Shown here: in pieces, positions 4,557-22,751 of the stretch | How positions within the stretch are numbered: position 1 is the first letter of the stretch | Layout: every line of letters starts with the position of its first letter | Virus record (IMG/VR): IMGVR_UViG_3300025138_000259 | Location: 1 to 27,993 of that record | DNA length: 27,993 nucleotides | DNA from: a virus | Direction: 5' to 3' (one strand) | Translations under genes and position numbers: made by a program | The notes under the pieces: generated by a model | Databases searched by the model: none | What the model was told of the DNA's origin: nothing | What the model saw: only the letters and a program-made list of their open reading frames with translations

Positions 4557-6380
4557 ATGGCAGAGAAAAATTTAACTGATTTTAGTTTATCGAGAGATAG
4601 TTATGCTGCTTTTGATGCGAAATCGCTAAAAGAATTAATTCAAACGAGATTAAATGACGGGGGTATTTATACCGATCAGTCGTTTGAAGGTAGTAATATG
4701 TCGTCTATAGTAGATGTTATAGCATATAGTTACCATTTACTTTTATTTTATTTAAATCAGACTTCTTCAGATGCAATGTTTACCGATACCAGCATATATG
4801 AAAATATGAATAGGATTGTTAAATTAATTGACTACAAACCTAGAGGTTACCAAACTTCATTACTTGCATTTGATTTAAAAGCAAGTAGCTTATTACCAAT
4901 TGATACATATACTATTAAAAGATATAGCTATTTCTTAGCTGGTGGTCTTTATTATTCATTTGTAGATGATAGCACGTTTAACAAGACAGTTAAAGGTGAT
5001 CAATCTTTAGCAAACTTTTCAAGTGAAAATATATTAAGAGAAGGTCAATACTTTGAATACCCTGAAATTATAGCTTTAGGGGAGAATTTTGAAACCATTC
5101 CATTAGCACTTCAAAGTAATGACGATAATGTAACAGTAAACATAGATAGTGGTTCGATTGATATATATGTACAAGATAGTAATACTAAGCAAATAATTGA
5201 ATTTACTGAAACAACTAGTTTATTTTTAGAAAATTCAGATTCCACTGTCTATGAAAAAAGATTAAATGAAAATGGTTTATACGAATTTAAATTTGGTAAT
5301 GGTGTCTTTGGTAAAAAATTAAATGAAGGAGATTCAGTTTATATCTATTATATAAAATCTTCGGGAGATGCCGGGGTTATATCACCTGGTGTACTCGATG
5401 GTAATAATTTAAATTTATATATTACACCTCGATTTGATTTAATTAGCCGTAACATTTATAATGCTACATTTAATTTTATTGATGTACAAGAAATACAATA
5501 CCTAGCGTTTAATAATACTTTACAATCGACTACACCAGTAGATATAGAAGATGTTGATAGTATAAGAGCTAATGCATCTAAAAACTTTCAACTACAAAAT
5601 AGGGTTATAACTTTAAAAGATTATAATGATTTTTTAGATGCTAATTTCTCTCAAATACTTAAGTCGTTTAGTGTATCAAATAATGACGAATATGTTGACC
5701 AATATTTAAATTATTTTTTAAATATCGGTTTAAATAGACCTAATGATGATAGTAGAGTACTTTTTAACCAAGTTAATTTTAATTCTATAAATCAAGCAAA
5801 TAACATATACTTATTTTTAGTTTCAAAATTTAATAATGTAGATGCAAATAATAATTTATCCTTTTTATCTACATCTCAAAAATCTTCCATTATAAATACT
5901 TTTAAAGAAAAGCAACAAGCAAATATTAATCTAGTACCTGTCGACCCAGTTTACACAGCTTTTGATCTTGGAGTTAGATCAGGTGTTAATGAAACTATAA
6001 CGAAAGATATAGCAGAAGAATCATTTTTAGTTATAAAAAGAAACGTTTTAAGTAACACCAGTACTGAAGCTTTAAGAGAACGGATTAATAATATATTTAT
6101 AAATTATTTCGAAAGCTTAAATTTAAATGATTTGGTGAGCCTTAAAGATATAAGCAATCAAATATTCGGTATTGAAGGGGTTGAAAGCGTAATTACAAGA
6201 CGTATTATTAACTCCACGACAATAAATGAAGTTGATGGTATAAGTCTTGTTGTTTATAATCCTATTTACCCTGATAATGATATTAGAATTATTGGCAGCG
6301 ATTTAAAGTTACCATTTTTCAAGTACCCATATTTATCAGATAAATCAATACTAGCTAATATAATCATAGAGAATACATAG
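4557..6380 (+). CDS. 6: Baseplate wedge subunit gp6-like (baseplate J family)
   Basis: 607 residues; T4 gp6 is 660. The N-terminal section is diagnostic: TDQSFEGSNMSSIVDVIAYS (about residues 39-58), then a YHLLLFYLN helix and YENMNRIVKLIDYKPRGYQT (about 80-100), the hallmark of gp6 proteins of T4-like phages. A middle section with FKFGNGVFGKKLNEGD (about 241-257) and the C-terminal LVPVDPVYTAFDL region correspond to baseplate J-type beta domains, ending with an EGVESVITRRI segment typical of this family. gp6 dimers link the six wedges into a ring around the hub and partner gp25 and gp53; gp25 is encoded just upstream. The ATG lies 12 nt after the gp25 stop with no Shine-Dalgarno. Confidence 0.93.
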   Translation: MAEKNLTDFSLSRDSYAAFDAKSLKELIQTRLNDGGIYTDQSFEGSNMSSIVDVIAYSYHLLLFYLNQTSSDAMFTDTSIYENMNRIVKLIDYKPRGYQTSLLAFDLKASSLLPIDTYTIKRYSYFLAGGLYYSFVDDSTFNKTVKGDQSLANFSSENILREGQYFEYPEIIALGENFETIPLALQSNDDNVTVNIDSGSIDIYVQDSNTKQIIEFTETTSLFLENSDSTVYEKRLNENGLYEFKFGNGVFGKKLNEGDSVYIYYIKSSGDAGVISPGVLDGNNLNLYITPRFDLISRNIYNATFNFIDVQEIQYLAFNNTLQSTTPVDIEDVDSIRANASKNFQLQNRVITLKDYNDFLDANFSQILKSFSVSNNDEYVDQYLNYFLNIGLNRPNDDSRVLFNQVNFNSINQANNIYLFLVSKFNNVDANNNLSFLSTSQKSSIINTFKEKQQANINLVPVDPVYTAFDLGVRSGVNETITKDIAEESFLVIKRNVLSNTSTEALRERINNIFINYFESLNLNDLVSLKDISNQIFGIEGVESVITRRIINSTTINEVDGISLVVYNPIYPDNDIRIIGSDLKLPFFKYPYLSDKSILANIIIENT

Positions 6381-7162: not shown

Positions 7163-7179
7163 AAAAATTATATTTTTTT
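7163..7179. terminator. Weak A/T hairpin between convergent genes
   Basis: AAAAATTATATTTTTTT spans the 6-nt gap and 3' end between convergent genes ending at 7161 (+) and 7168 (-). It could fold as an A/T-only stem with a U-run in both directions, a possible weak bidirectional terminator. There is no GC stem. Confidence 0.25.
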
Positions 7180-7968
7180 AAGTTTTTCTATTTCTTTACC
7201 GAGCCTTTTTACCTCTTCAATTAGTATTGGTATTAAACTAATATAATCTACAGATAGGTAACCTTCATTATTCTCTCTCACTAAACTGTCATCTAACTTG
7301 TATAAATCTTGAGCTATAATACCTTTACCTTTACCGGTTTTTTTGGATCTATCATTCCAATCAAACTCATAACCAGTTAAATTGCTTACAAAATTTTCCG
7401 AGTCTATAGGTGATAAATTATTTTTTAATCTACTATCTGATGTACTGAACGCAATGATATCACCGGTACTATTAATAGTACCATTAACTTGTAAACCAGT
7501 TGTTGTTAATAAAGCACCGACACCAACAGTACCGTTAACAGATAGAGTACCATCAATTGCAGTATTTTTTAAATTAGTAGTACCTAAAGTTGAAGTACCT
7601 GTTACTGTTAATGTGTTAAGTAAACTTAGAGGCCCGTTAAATGTACCACAACCAGTAAATCTATAATTACCCGCTGTTAAACCATTAGTAGTGGTGTCTC
7701 CACATGTGCTAATACTACCATCAAAAGCTCCTGCACCTTTTACGCATAAATTACCATTTGTAGTTAGGTTACCACCAGCAGTTACATTACAACTTACTAC
7801 TAAAGAACTATCAAATGAAGAATTATTACCAGTTGAGCCTAGTGTTAATGCTGTGCTACAACCAAAACCATCGGTAATTAAAGTGCCGGTTCCAATTGGA
7901 CTGCTATTAAAGGTTTTTAATAAACCAGGGTATGTTGTATTGATGTTTTTTCCTTGTAAAGTTGCCAT
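7168..7968 (-). CDS. Tail fibre with C-terminal S74 self-cleaving chaperone domain (fibre A)
   Basis: 266 residues. The N-terminal TTYPGLLK (residues 11-18) is shared with the next fibre and probably anchors to the baseplate. Residues 35-170 are Gly/Thr/Ser repeats such as GTLSVNGTVGVGALL, typical of trimeric beta-helical shafts, with five cysteines. From residue about 171 comes a peptidase S74 / endosialidase chaperone domain: DIIAFSTSDSRLKNN, with Ser177 and Lys182 spaced five apart as in the catalytic dyad of endosialidase, then GYEFDWND, GIIAQD, YLSVDY and a C-terminal coiled coil. In this family the domain folds the trimer and cuts itself off before the serine. The start has a strong GGAGG 7 nt upstream and overlaps the upstream stop as TAATG, so it is coupled to fibre B. 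Confidence 0.92.
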   Translation of the reverse strand: MATLQGKNINTTYPGLLKTFNSSPIGTGTLITDGFGCSTALTLGSTGNNSSFDSSLVVSCNVTAGGNLTTNGNLCVKGAGAFDGSISTCGDTTTNGLTAGNYRFTGCGTFNGPLSLLNTLTVTGTSTLGTTNLKNTAIDGTLSVNGTVGVGALLTTTGLQVNGTINSTGDIIAFSTSDSRLKNNLSPIDSENFVSNLTGYEFDWNDRSKKTGKGKGIIAQDLYKLDDSLVRENNEGYLSVDYISLIPILIEEVKRLGKEIEKLKKI

Positions 7969-8849
7969 TATTTTTCCTCCAATATTTTAATTCTATTATT
8001 TAAACCTTTTACCTCTTCAATTAAAAAAGGTATTAGCTTTATGTAGTCGACAGATAAATACCCGTCTGCTCTTTTCTTAACTAATGTAGGAGCTACTTTT
8101 TCAACTTCTTGAGCTATAACACCGTAATCGTGACCTTCTCTATCTGTTTTATCATTCCAATCAAATTCGTAACCATTTATACTATTAATAACATTATTTG
8201 AATCAGTAATTTTTATGATGTTATTTTTTAAGTTTCTATCGGATGAATGGAATGCAATAATATCAGCTTTTGATCGAATATTACCTTGAGCTTCTATAAT
8301 ACCGCAAACGTTTAAAGTGCCACCTGCAACTAGCGCTCCACCGTTAAAGGTTGCACATCCATGTAAAGTGGAAGTAGTACAAACTTCTAATGTACTACAA
8401 AGCAATGCAGCACCAACTAAGGTACTAGTAGTATCGACCTTCAACGACGTTAAACATGAAAGCCCGCATAAATTATTGACCCCGCTACCACTATCAGACT
8501 TTACGAAAATATTATCATCAATACACGCACCACCATTGCAAACCTCTAAAAGGTTTGCAGCCACTCCGGCTCCACCTGTTCTATCACCTTCAATACATGT
8601 AGGACCAAAAATCTTAGCTCCGGCTAAGTTTTGACCAATTGCTAATGAAGCTAAATTACCACTACCGTCACTTAATCTAGCTAAAGCACTAGGTGAGGCA
8701 GTACCTCTATTGTTATTTTTAAAAATAGCATTAAGAGTTCTATTACCTCCTTGGACTGTTGGTATAAATTGGTTGTCCGCAACCTTTATAAGTGATGGGT
8801 AAGTAAATGCTACTATTTCACCCGCTAAACCTGTAATCTCTGTTGCCAT
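7968..8849 (-). CDS. Cysteine-rich tail fibre with C-terminal S74 chaperone domain (fibre B)
   Basis: 293 residues, a tandem paralogue of fibre A. The N-terminus has AFTYPSLIK (residues 14-22), matching the anchor motif of fibre A. The shaft (about 60-195) consists of short Gly/Thr/Leu beta repeats carrying nine cysteines (residues 85-182), none in the chaperone domain. The S74 domain begins at DIIAFHSSDRNLKNN with Ser203 and Lys208 five apart, the catalytic pair, then GYEFDWNDK, DYGVIAQEVEKVAPTLV, YLSVDYIKLIP and a C-terminal coiled coil. Expected to form a trimer, cleave itself, and serve in host binding. A perfect late motif GATAAATA ends 5 nt before its ATG, so this gene may start a two-fibre unit. 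Confidence 0.92.
   Translation of the reverse strand: MATEITGLAGEIVAFTYPSLIKVADNQFIPTVQGGNRTLNAIFKNNNRGTASPSALARLSDGSGNLASLAIGQNLAGAKIFGPTCIEGDRTGGAGVAANLLEVCNGGACIDDNIFVKSDSGSGVNNLCGLSCLTSLKVDTTSTLVGAALLCSTLEVCTTSTLHGCATFNGGALVAGGTLNVCGIIEAQGNIRSKADIIAFHSSDRNLKNNIIKITDSNNVINSINGYEFDWNDKTDREGHDYGVIAQEVEKVAPTLVKKRADGYLSVDYIKLIPFLIEEVKGLNNRIKILEEK
7976..7980 (-). promoter_or_regulatory. Strong Shine-Dalgarno for fibre A
   Basis: GGAGG, 7 nt before the ATG at 7968, inside the last codons of fibre B. One of the few clear Shine-Dalgarno sequences in the window, and at a gene without its own late motif. Confidence 0.8.
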
Positions 8850-8853
8850 ATTA

Positions 8854-10848
8854 TTATTTATCTAATAGTACTGTCTTTAAAAGAGGTATTCTTTCTCCAA
8901 GTCTTATTGTTTTTACAGATTCAATTACTTTACTTTGATAATTAAAAATATTAGTTATTATTCTGTTTAAAGTATTACCATTTAAAGTTTCATTAATACC
9001 AGCAAAAAACTGCTTTTGGTCAGTTAAACTTAATATTTTTTTGTCTTCAAAACTTAATTCTAAAAATTCCTTAAACCTTAGATAACCATCAGTTTCAACG
9101 GTATCAAACTGTGCTAGTAATTGTTTGTTTAAATTTTTACTTAGTAAATTTAAATTAAATAAATGCCTGTAAATCGTCGAATTTAGTGTTATATTATTAA
9201 AATATTCGTTTTTTATAAATATTTCGCTTTTTTTGTAAAAATTAGGTCTTGTTGTATTTAACATTGAAATATAATCATTATTTTCATTAAAACTAAATAC
9301 TCTTTTATTAGACCACAACAATACTTTATCTGTTAAATTATTATCATCCCCAATAATATTTAAACCATTACCAGCTAACGTAAACTTATCAAAATCAGGT
9401 AACTTATCCCATGTTTCTTCATAAGCAGAAAATCTACTAAATATTGTATTCCATAAAGCTAGCGAATCAAATTCTATATTAATTGTAAATCGTTCAATAT
9501 TTTTACTCTGCGTATTGACAAAATATTTATATACGTTTTTAGTGGTCTGTAAATAGTATATATTGCTATCGTTTTCAGAAAAAACTATTTTACTGGGTTG
9601 TTCAAAAAATCCTATTAAAGGTATACTAAATTCGAACGGGTTGCTCGTTAGAGTGTACCTATCAACTTCAACAAAATTATTAGCGTTTAACACTAATACT
9701 GTATATGTATTAGTTAGTATATATAATAAATCAAAAGTATTATTATACGTCATACTTACAAACTCATTTTCTTCAAATAATTGAGTATTACCATATTTGA
9801 TTTTATATACGAACTTATCACTAAACTTTTTAATAGTTTTTTCTATTTGGTCATATATAAAAATATTTTTATTACCATATTCAATATATGTATTATCTGT
9901 AAAATTGGTTACATCATTACCTTGGGCACCAATTGTTTCTATTAGTTTAAATTTTCTGATTCCCGTTCTATCTTTATTAGTTATGGTTTTGGTTTCAGCT
10001 TTATAAATTTGATTTCTACCTCTATCATTTATATAAAGAATGCTATTTTGTTTATCAGCTGCTATAGATGTAATATCTTTAAAGGTAATTTGATTATCGA
10101 CACCAATTCCATTTGCACTTAAAACAAAATCAAACATTGTATCTTTATTATCTAATTGATAAGCATATAAAAATGAACTAGTTGAGACAAATAATGTATA
10201 TTCATCTACCGCTTTAGTACTTTTTATTGTTACAGTATTAAGTTTTTTAACGTCAACAAATTGATGGTTATACCCTGATAATGGGACTAAACCAGAATCA
10301 CTTTGAAAATTAGTACGGCCACCGCTACCACCAGAAATAAACCTAACATCAGAAGATACCCACTGCCATATTGTACCTTGGTCTGAGGCAGATAAAACTG
10401 CATAAGATTTAAACTCAGTTGGTATCAGCGGGTCATTAATGTTACTAAATCTAAATAAGTCGATAAAATTTTCATACATTAAATTTAATTTAAAATTGAT
10501 TGAATTTTTATTAATTAACTCATTTGGTTTGAATAATACATCATCCAATGTATATGATGTATCTAATTCTGTAAAAATCGTTCTATCGAAAAACTTTGTC
10601 GAACCAACAATATCGGTATATACCCCCTCGACGACAGTTAATTTATCTTTTTGAAGATTTTTTGTCTTGTAAAAACTTTCTCCATCGTAATTATAATAAC
10701 CGATATATTTGGAACCTAAAAATGTAAAATCATTTCCATTAGTATATCCTATTTTTTTTGATGTAGTAATAGATTTATACTCATCGCTAGATGTATTGTT
10801 TAAATCTTGACCTATATAAAATTTTGTTGCTATATCATTAACTGCCAT
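8854..10848 (-). CDS. Virion protein with beta-propeller-like repeats (664 aa)
   Basis: I do not recognise a named family. Roughly residues 165-470 contain repeated segments of NHL/WD-like pattern, for example ITSIAADKQNSILYINDRGR followed by NQIYKAE, then VSMTYNNTFDLLYILTN and IVFSENDSNIYYLQ, which suggests a beta-propeller. The last 120 residues are helical (LSKNLNKQLLAQFD ... LRFKEFLELSFEDKKILSL). No signal peptide or membrane segment. The gene ends 4 nt before fibre B and starts 4 nt after the 1345-aa gene, so the three are read together; no Shine-Dalgarno is visible. Context suggests a tail or baseplate-peripheral protein, perhaps a platform for the fibres; this is inference. Confidence 0.8.
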   Translation of the reverse strand: MAVNDIATKFYIGQDLNNTSSDEYKSITTSKKIGYTNGNDFTFLGSKYIGYYNYDGESFYKTKNLQKDKLTVVEGVYTDIVGSTKFFDRTIFTELDTSYTLDDVLFKPNELINKNSINFKLNLMYENFIDLFRFSNINDPLIPTEFKSYAVLSASDQGTIWQWVSSDVRFISGGSGGRTNFQSDSGLVPLSGYNHQFVDVKKLNTVTIKSTKAVDEYTLFVSTSSFLYAYQLDNKDTMFDFVLSANGIGVDNQITFKDITSIAADKQNSILYINDRGRNQIYKAETKTITNKDRTGIRKFKLIETIGAQGNDVTNFTDNTYIEYGNKNIFIYDQIEKTIKKFSDKFVYKIKYGNTQLFEENEFVSMTYNNTFDLLYILTNTYTVLVLNANNFVEVDRYTLTSNPFEFSIPLIGFFEQPSKIVFSENDSNIYYLQTTKNVYKYFVNTQSKNIERFTINIEFDSLALWNTIFSRFSAYEETWDKLPDFDKFTLAGNGLNIIGDDNNLTDKVLLWSNKRVFSFNENNDYISMLNTTRPNFYKKSEIFIKNEYFNNITLNSTIYRHLFNLNLLSKNLNKQLLAQFDTVETDGYLRFKEFLELSFEDKKILSLTDQKQFFAGINETLNGNTLNRIITNIFNYQSKVIESVKTIRLGERIPLLKTVLLDK
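8855..8862 (-). promoter_or_regulatory. Late-promoter motif GATAAATA before fibre B
   Basis: Perfect NATAAATA, 5 nt before the ATG at 8849; overlaps the last codons of the upstream 664-aa gene. No Shine-Dalgarno. Confidence 0.45.
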
Positions 10849-16492: not shown

Positions 16493-16506
16493 CATAAATA
16501 TAAATA
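16493..16506 (+). promoter_or_regulatory. Overlapping late-promoter motifs CATAAATA and TATAAATA
   Basis: Two overlapping NATAAATA matches at 16493-16500 and 16499-16506, ending 10 and 4 nt before the ATG at 16511. With the usual T4 spacing, the first gives a leader of about five bases; the second would start transcription inside the start codon, so the first is the better candidate. Confidence 0.6.
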
Positions 16507-16510
16507 TATT

Positions 16511-17092
16511 ATGGCAAAGAAATTCTTAAATTTAATAGAAAATATTCAAAAACAGATGAATAGCGGCTTCACTACCGGTGGTTTAGTTAAATTAGCTAGT
16601 GATTATAAATCTAAAGAGGGTTATAAGAATCAAAATAAAGAACAGCAAAAATATATTGCTGATTATTTTAATTCAAATGGTAATTATAAAGTAAAAAATA
16701 TATCTACTGAATACCCTTCATCGGCACCAGGTAACAGTGATAATAGGGGGAATTTTTTCTATATTACTGTTGCAAAGGAATTAGCTAATGGTTTAACAGA
16801 TCAGCAAGGTCAAGTTACGGTCACGAGTGATATGCTTGAACCTATTGATGCCGATATCAATAGAACGCCAGTTGACCCTGATACAGTATACGACAACAAG
16901 GTACAAATTGATCCAAAAGAAGCAGAAGAGAATGAAGAGCAACAACAAACAATGACACAACAAGGGGATAGCCTTAAAAAGACAAACCTCTCCAACGCAC
17001 GTCAAAATACTAAGATTCCTTCATCCCCAGCGACTAAATCACCCGCAGTTAATGAAAGTTATACTTCGCAGTATATACCAATTAAAGGTTAA
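16511..17092 (+). CDS. Hypothetical protein with capsid-targeting-like N-terminus (193 aa)
   Basis: The family is not recognised. The first ten residues MAKKFLNLIE end in L-I-E, matching the (Leu/Ile)-x-Glu site at which the T4 prohead protease gp21 removes capsid-targeting peptides. Residues 12-100 are a compact helical/beta segment with KEGYKNQNKEQQKYIADYFN and a FFYITVAKEL strand. The last 80 residues are disordered-looking, acidic and Gln-rich (EEQQQTMTQQ), ending in a Ser/Pro tail. No membrane segment. It is the first gene of a two-gene plus-strand unit with a late-type promoter, followed after 4 nt by another protein with a similar N-terminus. A packaged internal head protein is a hypothesis; a scaffold-like protein is the alternative. 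Confidence 0.75.
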   Translation: MAKKFLNLIENIQKQMNSGFTTGGLVKLASDYKSKEGYKNQNKEQQKYIADYFNSNGNYKVKNISTEYPSSAPGNSDNRGNFFYITVAKELANGLTDQQGQVTVTSDMLEPIDADINRTPVDPDTVYDNKVQIDPKEAEENEEQQQTMTQQGDSLKKTNLSNARQNTKIPSSPATKSPAVNESYTSQYIPIKG

Positions 17093-17096
17093 TTTT

Positions 17097-17372
17097 ATGA
17101 AAAATAAGGACACTCAACTAATAGAAGAAGCCTACACACAAGTGCAAGAAGGTTTCGGCGACGTTGCTAAAAGCGGTGCTAAAATGGCTGGTAAAACGAT
17201 TGGTAAAGTTGGATTAGCAGCAACTGGAGTAGCAGCAAAAACCGCCGGTATCGGACTTGATGGTTTAATGAAAGCTTTAAACTACCTTACATCAGAGCAG
17301 CTTCAAAAACTTGGACAAGCTGCTTTAAATAAAGCAGATCAAATAAAGATTAGCGACGAAGAAGATTGCTAA
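17097..17372 (+). CDS. Small Gly/Ala-rich amphipathic protein with capsid-targeting-like N-terminus (91 aa)
   Basis: The start is placed at 17097 because the frame's earlier ATG at 17052 lies inside the preceding gene, while 17097 is 4 nt after its stop with AAAGG 8 nt upstream (17084-17088). The first residues MKNKDTQLIE, followed by EAY, closely resemble the T4 internal-protein targeting peptide type (MKTYQEFIAE in IPIII) with Glu at position 10. Residues 20-62 are a Gly/Ala/Lys repeat region (KSGAKMAGKTIGKVGLAATG) that would form a long amphipathic or membrane-active helix. The C-terminus is a second helix (TSEQLQKLGQAALNKADQ) and an acidic tail. Function unknown; an internal head or ejected protein is inferred. 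It converges on the next gene with a 2-nt gap. Confidence 0.72.
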   Translation: MKNKDTQLIEEAYTQVQEGFGDVAKSGAKMAGKTIGKVGLAATGVAAKTAGIGLDGLMKALNYLTSEQLQKLGQAALNKADQIKISDEEDC

Positions 17373-17374
17373 TT

Positions 17375-17812
17375 CTAGATATCGATACTATCTTGATCTG
17401 ATTTTTCAGATTTAGAATTAGCAATTCTCTCTAGTTTCTTTTTCGCACCGTATACTTTAGCAGCTCTACCTCCTACAACAGCTAACTTAGTTGCTGGCCT
17501 TGCGAGTTTACCTAATTTACGGAATTTTAATATTTTAATTACATCTGCAAATGGTATTAAAGATATAGCGGATATACCAGCGTTAACTATATGTTCTTTA
17601 GCTATATCATTCTCTTTTTTTGCTAAAGCTAATCCGGATCTGAGTGCAGATATTACGACGTTTACTGTATCTGCGGCAGGGCCGACACCTAATATAGGGT
17701 CTAGACCAAGTACATCAAGAGCTGTTTGAAGATTGTCAACTGCATTGCGTTTTCTTCTTTCTTCACAAACTACATCATATTGTTCAGCTATTAGGTTTAA
17801 ATCATGTTTCAT
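17375..17812 (-). CDS. Hydrophobic-module protein with capsid-targeting-like N-terminus (145 aa)
   Basis: MKHDLNLIAE has Ile-Ala-Glu at residues 8-10, the same ending as the T4 IPIII targeting peptide. A charged stretch (CEERRKRN) follows, then a hydrophobic module at about residues 26-97: LQTALDVLGLDPILGVGPAA, a helix, a short polar link, VNAGISAISLIPFADVIKIL. This two-helix pattern with 'xIPxxD' turns resembles the hydrophobic module found ahead of toxin domains in polymorphic toxins and in some phage virion proteins. The C-terminal 45 residues are strongly basic (LKFRKLGKLARPATK, VYGAKKKLER) before an acidic tail. It lies 12 nt after the clamp-loader gene but has its own late-type motif ATTAAATA 5 nt before the ATG. 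A packaged, injected protein is inferred; function is unknown. Confidence 0.72.
   Translation of the reverse strand: MKHDLNLIAEQYDVVCEERRKRNAVDNLQTALDVLGLDPILGVGPAADTVNVVISALRSGLALAKKENDIAKEHIVNAGISAISLIPFADVIKILKFRKLGKLARPATKLAVVGGRAAKVYGAKKKLERIANSKSEKSDQDSIDI
17396..17411. terminator. Hairpin near convergent gene ends
   Basis: ATCTGA, TTTT loop, TCAGAT: perfect 6-bp stem inside the 3' end of the 145-aa gene and 24 nt past the plus-strand stop at 17372, followed on the plus strand by TTT. It may end the plus-strand unit; weak. Confidence 0.3.
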
Positions 17813-17817
17813 TTAAT

Positions 17818-17825
17818 TATTTAAT
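17818..17825 (-). promoter_or_regulatory. Late-promoter-like motif ATTAAATA before the 145-aa gene
   Basis: One mismatch to NATAAATA; lies in the 12-nt gap after the clamp-loader gene and ends 5 nt before the ATG at 17812. It suggests that this gene can be expressed late, independently of the replication operon upstream. Confidence 0.45.
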
Positions 17826-18739
17826 TAAATCTTCTCGAGATTGACCCAGCATGCAAACGCATTAATCTCTTTATCTAATACAAATACGTCTTTATACATA
17901 TGATCTGAAATAGTAACTATATATTGACGTTTTTTATTATCATCTAAACTAGAAGCGTATACATAATTTAAGTACTGCTTCATTAAGTTATGGTAATCAC
18001 CCTGAAACTCATTTTCATTTTCAATTAGATACTTTCTTAGCTTTAAAGAATCTTTAGATATAATGTGCTTATGTATAACAATAACTATATCTTTACTATC
18101 TACACTATGGTCAATTGTAAAGATATTACTAATAGTAGCTTTTTGAATACTATTTAATACTTTACGAATATCAGGGTAACTTTGTTTAATTACATTCACA
18201 AAATTAGGTTTCTGATCAGTTTCAATCTTAATACCTTCCTGCTTCACTATTTCAACAACTCTTTTAACTACATCATCAAACGGAGGCATTAAGTCGAAGA
18301 ATTGTGTTCTACTTTGAATAGCAGGTATAATTTTATGCTTATAATTTGCTGTAAGTATAAACCGAGTCATACCACTATATTCTTCCATTGTATTACGTAG
18401 TGCGCGTTGCCCGTCGAGGGTAATACCATCAGCCTCATCTAAGATGACTACTTTATGTTTCCCATCAAGAGACTTAGTCTGACTAAAGCCAACTACCTTA
18501 GAGCGTATCGTATCAATACCATTTTCATCAGAAGCATTAATATAAAGGTATTGACACTGTAAAATATCATTTACTAATATTCTAGCTAATGTAGTTTTAC
18601 CTAAACCAGGTGTACCAACAAAAAGCAGATTTGGTATCTCTTCAGTAATAGATTCAAAATACTTTCTATTACTATCAGATAATACCAAATCTGATAACGT
18701 TTTAGGTCTATACTTTTCTACGTATAATTTATTAAACAT
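17825..18739 (-). CDS. 44: Sliding-clamp loader ATPase subunit (gp44-like, AAA+)
   Basis: 304 residues (T4 gp44 is 319). It begins with LYVEKYRPKTLSDLV, the clamp-loader signature. Walker A is GTPGLGKTT (residues 42-50), Walker B VVILDEAD (97-104), sensor 1 FILTANY (127-133), the Ser-Arg finger motif SRT at 143-145 (Arg144; SRC in many relatives) and a sensor-2-like Arg192 in YPDIRKVLNSIQ. The C-terminal helices form the oligomerising collar. With a gp62-like subunit, not encoded here, it would load the gp45 clamp onto DNA using ATP. Its ATG overlaps the stop of a 35-aa frame as TAATG and lacks a Shine-Dalgarno, so translation is probably coupled. It is last in the dUTPase operon; a 7-bp hairpin lies 25 nt upstream. 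Confidence 0.95.
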   Translation of the reverse strand: MFNKLYVEKYRPKTLSDLVLSDSNRKYFESITEEIPNLLFVGTPGLGKTTLARILVNDILQCQYLYINASDENGIDTIRSKVVGFSQTKSLDGKHKVVILDEADGITLDGQRALRNTMEEYSGMTRFILTANYKHKIIPAIQSRTQFFDLMPPFDDVVKRVVEIVKQEGIKIETDQKPNFVNVIKQSYPDIRKVLNSIQKATISNIFTIDHSVDSKDIVIVIHKHIISKDSLKLRKYLIENENEFQGDYHNLMKQYLNYVYASSLDDNKKRQYIVTISDHMYKDVFVLDKEINAFACWVNLEKI

Positions 18740-18846
18740 TATTTTTTCTTTTTTGATGGCTTTGTAACAGTTACTGTTACCGTCTTTCTCACCTTCGCAT
18801 TACCGACTCTTCTTTCGGTTATCTTTTGTCTTGTTACTTTTCCCAT
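18739..18846 (-). CDS. Tiny basic protein (35 aa), overlapping frame
   Basis: Reads MGKVTRQKITERRVGN, a TVTVTVT strand and a KKKK tail: Lys/Arg-rich, possibly nucleic-acid binding. Its stop TAA overlaps the clamp-loader ATG as TAATG, the same junction used between clear genes here. It overlaps the 52-aa gene by 47 nt in another frame. Both tiny proteins start with Met-Gly-Lys. Alternatives: a leader frame serving only for coupling, or the 3' half of one gene joined to the 52-aa frame by a +1 shift near the GGGAAAA run at about 18839-18845. Confidence 0.5.
   Translation of the reverse strand: MGKVTRQKITERRVGNAKVRKTVTVTVTKPSKKKK
18764..18780 (-). promoter_or_regulatory. Hairpin upstream of the clamp-loader start
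   Basis: GTAACAG, 3-nt loop, CTGTTAC: a perfect 7-bp inverted repeat 25 nt before the clamp-loader ATG, inside the 35-aa frame where it encodes part of TVTVTVT. It could modulate translation of the clamp loader; unproven. Confidence 0.35.
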
Positions 18847-18958
18847 AATTAATTATATCAGAGTTCCTTTTTTTATCACCACCCCAGTCAATACCATCGT
18901 AAGAATCTCCGAACTTCTTCAAACTATGACCTTTTCGCCATTTATCTCCTTTACCCAT
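18800..18958 (-). CDS. Small basic protein (52 aa) between dUTPase and clamp loader
   Basis: Not listed by size-based gene calling but well supported: its ATG overlaps the dUTPase stop as TAATG (18960-18956). The protein begins MGKGDKWRKGHSLKKFGDSY, continues with an aromatic, Gly-rich DGIDWGGDKK and ends in a Lys/Arg/Asn tail (KTKDNRKKSR). Very basic, no membrane segment or Cys. Small MGKG-starting proteins are common beside replication genes of marine T4-like phages in my recollection, but no function is known to me. Translation is probably coupled to dUTPase; the reading frame overlaps the next tiny gene by 47 nt. Confidence 0.68.
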   Translation of the reverse strand: MGKGDKWRKGHSLKKFGDSYDGIDWGGDKKRNSDIINYGKSNKTKDNRKKSR

Positions 18959-19425
18959 TACTTACCAGAGGAACCGAAACCTGCATCTCCACGTTGAGCT
19001 TCTTCAACACTATCAGACCACTCAATAGTTGTATCATAAATTTTTTCAATTTTGATCTGAGCTACTTTATCACCTTTTTCGAATACATACTTTTCATCAT
19101 TAAAATTATACATCTTAACTGCGCAATCCCCTCGATAACCATTATCCACTTCACCTAAATGCGGTTGTAAATTATGTTTAAACCCAAGACCTGACTTTGG
19201 TTTGATTACGAAACCGTAACCTGGAGTTATATATGCTACTGTAATACCTACAGGTACAACACCGCTGGATATTTTAACATTACCTACTGCATCTGATTTA
19301 CTTGGTCTAATAGTAGTACCTTGAACAGCATACAAATCAAAGCAATTATCCCCATTATGAGCTTTAGTAGGTAGTTTAGCATCTGGATGCGTCTTAACAA
19401 ATTTAATTATAACTTTTTCTTCCAT
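18958..19425 (-). CDS. dut: dUTP diphosphatase (trimeric dUTPase)
   Basis: 155 residues, normal for the trimeric family. All five motifs are present in order: GDNCFDLYA (residues 25-33), PKSGLGFK (76-83), GEVDNGYRGD (91-100) with the catalytic Asp94 and Tyr97, GDKVAQIKI (118-126) and RGDAGFGSSG (145-154). Motif 2 has Lys where Arg is usual (PRSG). The enzyme hydrolyses dUTP to dUMP and pyrophosphate, keeping uracil out of phage DNA and feeding dTMP synthesis. It is the first gene of a minus-strand operon with two tiny genes and the clamp loader. A sigma70-like promoter lies directly upstream, unlike the late-type motif of most other genes here, so early or middle expression is inferred. Confidence 0.96.
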   Translation of the reverse strand: MEEKVIIKFVKTHPDAKLPTKAHNGDNCFDLYAVQGTTIRPSKSDAVGNVKISSGVVPVGITVAYITPGYGFVIKPKSGLGFKHNLQPHLGEVDNGYRGDCAVKMYNFNDEKYVFEKGDKVAQIKIEKIYDTTIEWSDSVEEAQRGDAGFGSSGK

Positions 19426-20815: not shown

Positions 20816-22389
20816 TAGTCTAAATCCTCATTAAATTCTAAATTATCAAAGTAATAAGTTTTTACTGCGAATATCCTATTAATATATAAATCATCTTTTA
20901 TAAAATTGTGGTCAACATTAATTATAAAGTATGTACCAATAAATCTATCATCAAATTTATTTTTTGGATCCATACTTGACCTGTCTAAAGAAATAAACTT
21001 ACCAGCTTTTCTAAACATTTGACCCTTTAATGTTATTTCAACCCCTAAATTAGACATTATAGTATTTTTAAGAAGTTTATTTAAACCTTTACTTATACGT
21101 ACGTTTTCGTTACCACCATATAAGTTATAGACGTTTTCATAGTTAAAATTTAATTTTTTAAGATTAGTGTTAATTTGAGATGGAAATGGCTTGGTTTTAC
21201 CGAGCATATTTTGAACGTAATAATCATTAAATTTATCTTTAGAGTTTATTACGTTACTATCTTTTTGCATAATATTAAAGGTTTTATCCTTATGATTATA
21301 TTCATGTATAATTTTAGTATTAACCCTTTCATTTAATATATCAAAACTAGTGTTGTAAAATTTAACATCTAAAGCTTGACTTTTTTCATTAAAGCTAGGT
21401 GCATTCTTTGGAGATCTACCACCCTGGTCACTAATTTTTAAATTACCAGAACCTGAAATATTAATTTTTTCTATTGTATAAGTACCACTATTCTCCCCAT
21501 CGTTTGCTCTATCGAAAAAACTTTTTGCATTTATTAAAGTATATTTACCGGTGAAATAATCTTTTTTTAAAATACTAAAATCTTTTGAATCTAAATTACT
21601 AATATGTGCATCATACAAATAGTTTAAATCGTCCATTGCTTTTTTATATGTATTGCTACAATAATTTATTTTTGATAAACCATTTTCAAAATCTATATAA
21701 TTTACATTTTTTGATCCGCTGGTAGAACCATCAATATAAAATATATCTTGATCGTTTTGGTTTAAAGTAAATTTAAGTATTTCCCTTAGCATTATACCAG
21801 TATAATTACCACGTTCATCGTTATCTAAATTAAAAATAGGTACCCCAGATAAAGTATTAGTTTCAGAAACCTTCAAAGTGTTAATTGAATTAAAATATAT
21901 ATTTTTTTCTAATAATTTTCTCTGGTCTAGGTCATATAATTTTAATTTCTTATATAAAGCTCCTTCTATAATAGTATCAGTATCTTCAACGACGGTAAAT
22001 AAGTTACGTAATGAAAACACTGTATTATATTCTTTTTCTTCTTCTAATTTATAATCTTTTTTAGTACTTTTTAGCGGTATTATTTCTAAAAATAGTACAT
22101 CCCTACCATCACCTCTGAATGTAAACCCATTTTGAGAATTTAATGGTGTTGGTACGGTTCTTTCAATACTATGGTTATCATTATAAAGCATTATTTCAGC
22201 TTTTAAAAATGGGTCAAATAGATCATCAGTTATTGATATATTATAAAGAGAACCTTTTGATAGATCTAACCTTTCACCATCAGGATTTAAAAGGATAGCT
22301 TTTATATGATAAAATTGACTATCAATTTTAAACGAATTAGCTTTCGCTTCAGCCCCGGTTAAATTGTTTTTAATATAATCTTTTCTCAT
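20815..22389 (-). CDS. Baseplate hub protein, gp27/gpD-like candidate (524 aa)
   Basis: The N-terminal domain begins with YHIKAILLNPDGERLDLSKG, LYNISITDDLFDPFLKAEIM: an elastic beta-barrel opening like those of hub proteins (T4 gp27, P2 gpD). The C-terminal region (about 450-515) reads LKGQMFRKAGKFISLDRSS and GTYFIINVDHNFIKDDLY then INRIFAVKTYY, matching the 'G.Y.I..V.H.F....Y.N.I..VKTYY' end of that fold, which supports the call. T4 gp27 is 391 residues; this one is longer through Asn/Lys-rich insertions. A hub trimer would hold the spike and start the tube. It is coupled to the upstream gp53-like gene by TAATG, without a Shine-Dalgarno. Neighbours gp53, tube cap and tape measure fit. Confidence 0.7.
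   Translation of the reverse strand: MRKDYIKNNLTGAEAKANSFKIDSQFYHIKAILLNPDGERLDLSKGSLYNISITDDLFDPFLKAEIMLYNDNHSIERTVPTPLNSQNGFTFRGDGRDVLFLEIIPLKSTKKDYKLEEEKEYNTVFSLRNLFTVVEDTDTIIEGALYKKLKLYDLDQRKLLEKNIYFNSINTLKVSETNTLSGVPIFNLDNDERGNYTGIMLREILKFTLNQNDQDIFYIDGSTSGSKNVNYIDFENGLSKINYCSNTYKKAMDDLNYLYDAHISNLDSKDFSILKKDYFTGKYTLINAKSFFDRANDGENSGTYTIEKINISGSGNLKISDQGGRSPKNAPSFNEKSQALDVKFYNTSFDILNERVNTKIIHEYNHKDKTFNIMQKDSNVINSKDKFNDYYVQNMLGKTKPFPSQINTNLKKLNFNYENVYNLYGGNENVRISKGLNKLLKNTIMSNLGVEITLKGQMFRKAGKFISLDRSSMDPKNKFDDRFIGTYFIINVDHNFIKDDLYINRIFAVKTYYFDNLEFNEDLD
20825..20829 (-). promoter_or_regulatory. Shine-Dalgarno for the 291-aa gene
   Basis: GAGGA, 9 nt before the ATG at 20815, inside the last codons of the gp27-like gene (a TAATG-coupled start). 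Confidence 0.65.
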
Positions 22390-22751
22390 TATAATTGTTT
22401 TTCAATTGAATCGAGAATTTGTTCGATATATTGAGGTTTTAAAAGTCGTACCTTTTTACCATCGGGTAAATCTTTAATTGGATTAGTTATATTATTTAAA
22501 ACTAAAATTACCCACCACAAATCAATTGTACCATACGCATTATAGGATAATGTCGTTAACGGTGTACCTTTAGGTAATATAACGTGATAAAATAATCTTT
22601 CGTCAATATCATCAGGTATAGATATTTTTTTAGTTATATTATAATAAAAAAAGTTTTTTTCACCTGTATTATACAATTTAAATATATTTTCATAACGAGT
22701 TAAATCTAAATTACTTAGTTCATTTATATTATTTTGATATTTACCTAACAT
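22389..22751 (-). CDS. 53: Baseplate wedge protein gp53-like (LysM-like)
   Basis: 120 residues; T4 gp53 is 196. The core (residues 55-110) reads LFYHVILPKGTPLTTLSYNA, YGTIDLWWVILVLNNITNPI, then DLPDGKKVRLLKP. The pattern 'IxxGdTLxxLSyxxYGxxdLWWvIxxxNnIxxP...G..lrLp' is shared by gp53 and by LysM-type tail proteins that sit between wedge and hub. It would clamp gp6/gp25 of adjacent wedges around the hub. The gene is coupled on both sides by TAATG overlaps and has AAAGGAG 7 nt before its ATG. The N-terminal 50 residues are specific to this phage group. Confidence 0.8.
   Translation of the reverse strand: MLGKYQNNINELSNLDLTRYENIFKLYNTGEKNFFYYNITKKISIPDDIDERLFYHVILPKGTPLTTLSYNAYGTIDLWWVILVLNNITNPIKDLPDGKKVRLLKPQYIEQILDSIEKQL

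Follow-up and report, generated by a model that had tools for sequence, protein, structure and literature searches.

In a marine T4-like myophage, three adjacent genes raise the question of whether their products are packaged in the phage head and delivered to the host together with the DNA. The capsid-targeting sequence of T4 has been described on a small number of coliphage proteins, and three of these block restriction enzymes (PMC12373910); the first ten residues of IPIII are enough for targeting, and the prohead protease gp21 cleaves after L/I-x-E (PMC9026906). The marine genes, here called A, B and C, lie in a 28-kb genome fragment of 27,993 nucleotides (the window), which also encodes a gp6-like wedge protein (4557-6380, plus strand), a dUTPase (18958-19425, minus) and a gp53-like wedge protein (22389-22751, minus). 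They are flanked by a gene for a 491-aa protein and by the clamp loader gene (17825-18739, minus). Gene A (16511-17092, plus; 193 aa) is conserved in 26 marine contigs, and is followed by gene B (17097-17372, plus; 91 aa) and gene C (17375-17812, minus; 145 aa). The original prediction took the three N-termini for leaders of the T4 type, and its reading of the letters was accurate: A begins with MAKKFLNLIE (a putative propeptide, 16511-16540, plus), B with MKNKDTQLIE and C with MKHDLNLIAE (then QY; 17783-17812, minus), [LI]-x-E ends at residue 10 in each, the genes are consecutive with C opposite to A and B, and T4 ipIII does start with MKTYQEFIAE.

Of the 24 genes called in the window, A, B and C alone show [LI]xE with its glutamate at residue 10. 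Given a background of 0.0127 per position, three or more such genes would arise with P 3.4e-3, and any three consecutive genes sharing the motif at one common position between residues 8 and 12 with P about 2e-4. As the motif count among the window genes is modest evidence (P 3e-3), the case depends on relatives. A DNA pattern for the T4 leader found no match within the window, and none of the three proteins gave anything above cut-off in Pfam or in a PHROG set that includes the T4 internal-protein families; identification as IPI, IPII or IPIII by body homology was accordingly rejected. The small, basic character of mature IPI-III (a trait not shared by Alt) is not found uniformly in the set, where A is acidic (mature pI 5.1), B neutral (pI 6.4, about 8.2 kDa) and C basic (pI 9.6, 14.5 kDa, predicted helical); the median for the tag class described below is 6.1. 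A longer reading frame for B, from 17052, lacks support; homologues align from the methionine at 17097, taken here as the start of B, and in L051 a stop lies just upstream of that position. Alignment of B with its tag family reads L8 I9 E10 E11 A12 Y13 and places the equivalent glutamate at E11, so that cleavage is likelier at IEE|AY than after Glu10.

The tag of B (MKNKDTQLIEEAY, 17097-17135, plus) is portable. A search with B returned ten loci, two of which match only over residues 1-16 or 1-18 (MKNKDTQLLEEAYEKV and MKNKDTQLLAEAYDQI); the rest of each of these two proteins is unrelated to B. The DNA pattern MKxKDxx[LIMF][LIMF]xEAY, which fixes residues 2, 4, 5, 8, 9, 11, 12 and 13, was found in 68 viral stretches, against 3 for an order-permuted control with the same codons reordered. 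Pattern and earlier scan together yielded 68 tagged proteins long enough for comparison, and these fell into 51 body clusters. Positions left free by the pattern are conserved as well (residue 6 is Gln or Thr in 48/51, residue 10 Glu in 36/51), and the alignment has the consensus MKxKDQxLLEEAY with no conservation beyond it; when whole contigs were scanned with the tag profile, nearly all of the top matches lay at protein residues 5-6. The tag of C, second in the window by profile score, is a variant of that of B and occurs on other bodies (MKKDLKLIAEAY in G014, MKHHLELLAEAY in G012). In distant relatives of C the start has changed and the body has been kept.

Tandem arrays are common among the tagged genes. 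One of them (L107:85-8956 in G016) comprises nine tandem genes with unrelated bodies, all starting MK[SN]xD[QT]xLLE[EQ]AY and several preceded by TAAATA at a distance of about 10 nt; another contig carries four MTRKDINL-type genes (G014, 8033-9041). A 20-aa tblastn of the tag against cultured phages gave no match, and the KDxxLLEEAY class is consequently known here from environmental contigs only. A PADLOC scan of the tagged proteins gave weak matches only. No description of the marine tag was found in a search of mainly open journal papers, and priority is not proven.

A second class of tag is closer to IPIII itself. The leader pattern MKT[FY]xx[FY][LIMF]xEA was found in at least 120 stretches, against 3 in the control, and tags of this type (MKTFxxFIxEA) stand on 40 unrelated bodies that include T4 internal-protein families and peptidoglycan enzymes. 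Bodies are shared across classes: DUF5661 is found behind both tags, and one further body behind three different starts (MKFDLLVESF, MNFDLILEGI and MKNKDQILLEGIY).

Relatives differ in what they carry in the interval separating A from the clamp loader gene (17093-17824), which in the window is filled by B and C. It is empty in six relatives (L006, L010, L011, L012, L013 and L025) and holds one untagged 120-aa gene in L008 and L009, a MKTFQEFHEDAK-starting gene with C in L005, B with a C relative and MKSFKQHY or MKTFKQHY genes in L015 and L026, and a MQNIDSKLIYEAY gene with a MYNTILLEQKY gene in L014. Most of the genes that replace B and C there are tagged. Judged from these arrangements, the stretch behaves as an exchangeable cassette, resembling the cassette behaviour described for T-even internal proteins. 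The untagged protein of L008 (10579-10941, minus) has a helix-turn-helix-like N-terminus and is possibly a homing-endonuclease remnant. Beyond the clamp loader gene, in the gap before the dUTPase, the window has a small, very basic 52-aa reading frame (18800-18958, minus), where relatives carry different small genes.

We propose that the first 10-13 residues serve as a capsid-targeting propeptide resembling the N-terminus of gp22, which would dock the protein into the prohead core during its assembly. A gp21-type protease would then cleave after [LI]-x-E and the tag would leave, and the mature protein would remain with the DNA and enter the host at infection. Since targeting would reside in the tag, unrelated bodies could be swapped behind it, the stretch from A to the clamp loader being one such exchange slot. 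That B and C, and probably A, are propeptide-targeted head cargo seems to us quite likely. Taken singly, packaging is highly probable for B, likely for C and evenly balanced for A; the reading is well supported for the first two and weaker for the last. The predicted cassette of putatively packaged and ejected proteins survives in substance, through the portable tag, slot exchange and the gp21 genes of relatives, with A as its less certain member and possibly a structural protein.

The likeness to the T4 system also holds in substance. Both would rely on an N-terminal leader of about ten residues that ends in [LI]xE and stands on unrelated bodies (PMC9026906, PMC12373910, PMC3012670), and in both the locus is exchangeable; relatives of the marine phage also encode a gp21-type protease. 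In contrast, the marine tag (KDxxLLEEAY) forms a distinct class, its bodies lie outside IPI-III and are far more numerous, and it occurs in long tandem arrays; moreover, IPI-IPIII are basic whereas the putative marine cargo is not uniformly so.

The membership of A deserves separate treatment. Among 17 homologues with identity down to 23%, six residues are invariant (M1, F5, L8, E10, G23 and G94), and this invariance implies that the start of A matters. Its role could be structural. The predicted structure comprises an N-terminal helix, a small beta barrel (about 25-111) and a disordered tail; the model is weak overall (pLDDT 62.5, and likewise 60.7 for that of C), and fold searches with both models gave no match at E<=0.001. 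A tblastn of A against cultured phages was also without a match. The strongest alternative to our proposal is a mixed case, in which B and C are tagged cargo and A is an ordinary baseplate or neck structural or assembly protein with a fortuitous LxE in its N-terminal helix, so that the three are really two. Consistent with this, every relative carries A in the same position next to tail genes, a breadth of conservation expected of a structural protein; A also has a low tag-profile score (12th in the window), and its start was found on no unrelated body. Against it, F5, L8 and E10 make up half of the six invariant residues, and KFLxLxE-like starts do occur on other genes, such as MSKFLDLINEN in G014. 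We put the mixed case at somewhat under an even chance.

A profile of the marine tag that used no T4 data was applied to the N-termini of 248 T4 proteins, and ranked gp22 first, gp21 third, gp67 seventh and gp24, ipIII, ipII and gp68 16th-19th. Seven of the nine T4 head-core and internal proteins thus fall in the top 19 (P 1.6e-7, the cut at 19 having been set after the ranks were seen), and the presence of both gp22 and gp21 in the top three has P 1e-4 alone. The N-terminus of gp22, MLKEQLIAEAQ, contains QLIAEA, which matches the tag core (QLIEEAY in B, NLIAEQY in C); unlike cargo, however, gp22 forms the scaffold and is cleaved at many positions. Among the untagged proteins of tagged genomes, gp22 ranked 3/206, 9/249, 13/224 and 2/37. 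Such starts are not enriched in every T4-like phage, an idea excluded by T4 (no significant enrichment) and Mosig (none).

The window, a fragment without head genes, has no gp21 gene. Lack of such a protease from the genome would have told against the prediction, and relatives point the other way: G001, a 185-kb relative whose A is 82% identical, encodes one (E 7e-34). The gp21 family PF03420 is present in G001, G011, G014 and G015, and every one of the 11 tagged contigs that reach 170 kb has it, a count in which three are coliphages close to T4 and for which untagged contigs of that size supply no base rate. The gp23 of four relatives retains [LIF]xE near residue 60, in a loose alignment to the T4 cut site. 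These data bear on a second alternative, that the tag directs docking to another part of the particle or to a dedicated chaperone, is not cut by gp21, and carries its glutamate as part of the docking surface. Cleavage of the tag is indeed inferred, the conserved Tyr after EA is missing from T4 leaders, and some tagged contigs show no gp21. The last of these are fragments, however, and both the retained gp23 motif and the fact that the best T4 matches of the profile are gp22 and gp21 themselves weigh against this alternative, which we regard as unlikely. In G011, a protein encoded near the head genes (C1:102111-102668, minus) has several tag-like segments (MVFKDTQTLSGLYE, KDQDMLAEAYNVI), and may be a core protein with multiple cleavage sites.

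Two of the genes had also been credited with late-type promoters of their own. Gene A has an exact, T4-late-promoter-like TATAAATA (16499-16506, plus) 4 nt 5' of its start codon, but C, on the minus strand, has only the degenerate TTAAATAA; B has no such site and starts 4 nt past the A stop. Chance alone would give 15.5 exact sites in the window, where 12 were counted, and the site of A is exact in 11/26 homologues, with ATAAATA variants in the others. Across tagged genes the box is enriched: 14/41 tagged starts (34%) have ATAAATA in the 25 nt before them, compared with 118/1059 others (11%; P 1.3e-4). This enrichment, and the recombination of tagged loci, would suit a shared 5' end that acts at the level of DNA, as a late promoter, a translation start or a recombination patch, and encodes a peptide without a role. 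Yet upstream DNA is unrelated (identity 0.33), and within the tag identity is lowest at third codon positions (0.57 vs 0.74 and 0.83) and the peptide is retained, which indicates that selection acts on the peptide and leaves the DNA-level account very improbable. Chance occurrence of short LxE motifs in AT-rich genes, suggested by [LI]xE at 1.3% of positions and the modest window count, is hardly credible for the set, being refuted for B by the permuted controls of both patterns and opposed by the 51 and 40 unrelated bodies behind the two tags, and is a possible explanation for A.

Independent evidence on virions comes from cyanophage S-CREM2, for which a published mass spectrometry study gives 52 virion proteins in its Table 3 (PMC10665884). 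With reading frames taken from OR473000 and the motif [FYLIM][LIVFMY]xE fixed before the sequences were seen, 6/13 of the listed accessory proteins encoded away from the structural block carried the motif, against 8/160 undetected proteins (P 1.1e-4); for all unassigned virion proteins in the table the figure was 7/27 (P 1.8e-3). A narrower motif chosen post hoc, [FL]xxF[LFMN]xE, picks out five S-CREM2 proteins, all five in the virion list: a SAM hydrolase, an APH kinase, an NMNAT-like enzyme and two unknowns. The three enzymes start with MKxFxxFLxE and so parallel the marine proteins, with the difference that their tag is of an FxxFLxE class; in the text of the paper, the authors mention neither a common start nor cleavage, and remark that accessory proteins may co-purify with virions (PMC10665884). 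The NMNAT-like enzyme has a tag-type start in S-CREM2, S-SM2, S-SCSM2R, S-RIM2, Melnitz-1, G011 and G014, and begins directly with the enzyme, lacking a leader, in the jumbo phages RaK2 and Hallingskeid.

Somewhat more likely than not is the broader view that aquatic T4-like phages possess a modular head delivery, in which interchangeable tags (KDxxLLEEAY, MKTFxxFIxEA, FxxFLxE) would mark large, fast-changing sets of effectors for injection, sometimes nine in tandem. If this is true, sequence alone would suffice to predict, by way of the tag, which proteins uncultured phages inject. Should the tags act as in T4, the injected proteins that could be listed include NUDIX, NMNAT-like, kinase, SAM-hydrolase and peptidoglycan-cleaving enzymes and many unknowns. 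Delivery in the first minutes of infection would become directly testable, and short tags could be used for packaging proteins in phage heads.

N-terminal propeptides removed by a protease are also found on head and ejection proteins of phiKZ and SPN3US, but these are often over 100 residues long and follow another cleavage motif (PMC5694885). A minus-strand gene cluster with [LIF]xE-type starts lies beside large unannotated genes in G001 (C1:83528-88609; L038), and the same cluster is present in G013. The window encodes an adjacent pair of tail-fibre-like proteins (7168-8849, minus) whose chaperone-like C-termini resemble each other. Two MKTFxEF-tagged proteins (L192:3736 and L227:3515, both plus) contain a YYHGT/LHHGT segment that by eye is like an ADP-ribosyltransferase motif and recalls T4 Alt. 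Finally, a Cas9-like nuclease of S-CREM2 (L310:7704-10313), reported from the virion, has RFASFMAEAA from residue 18, suggesting a mis-annotated start or an internal tag.
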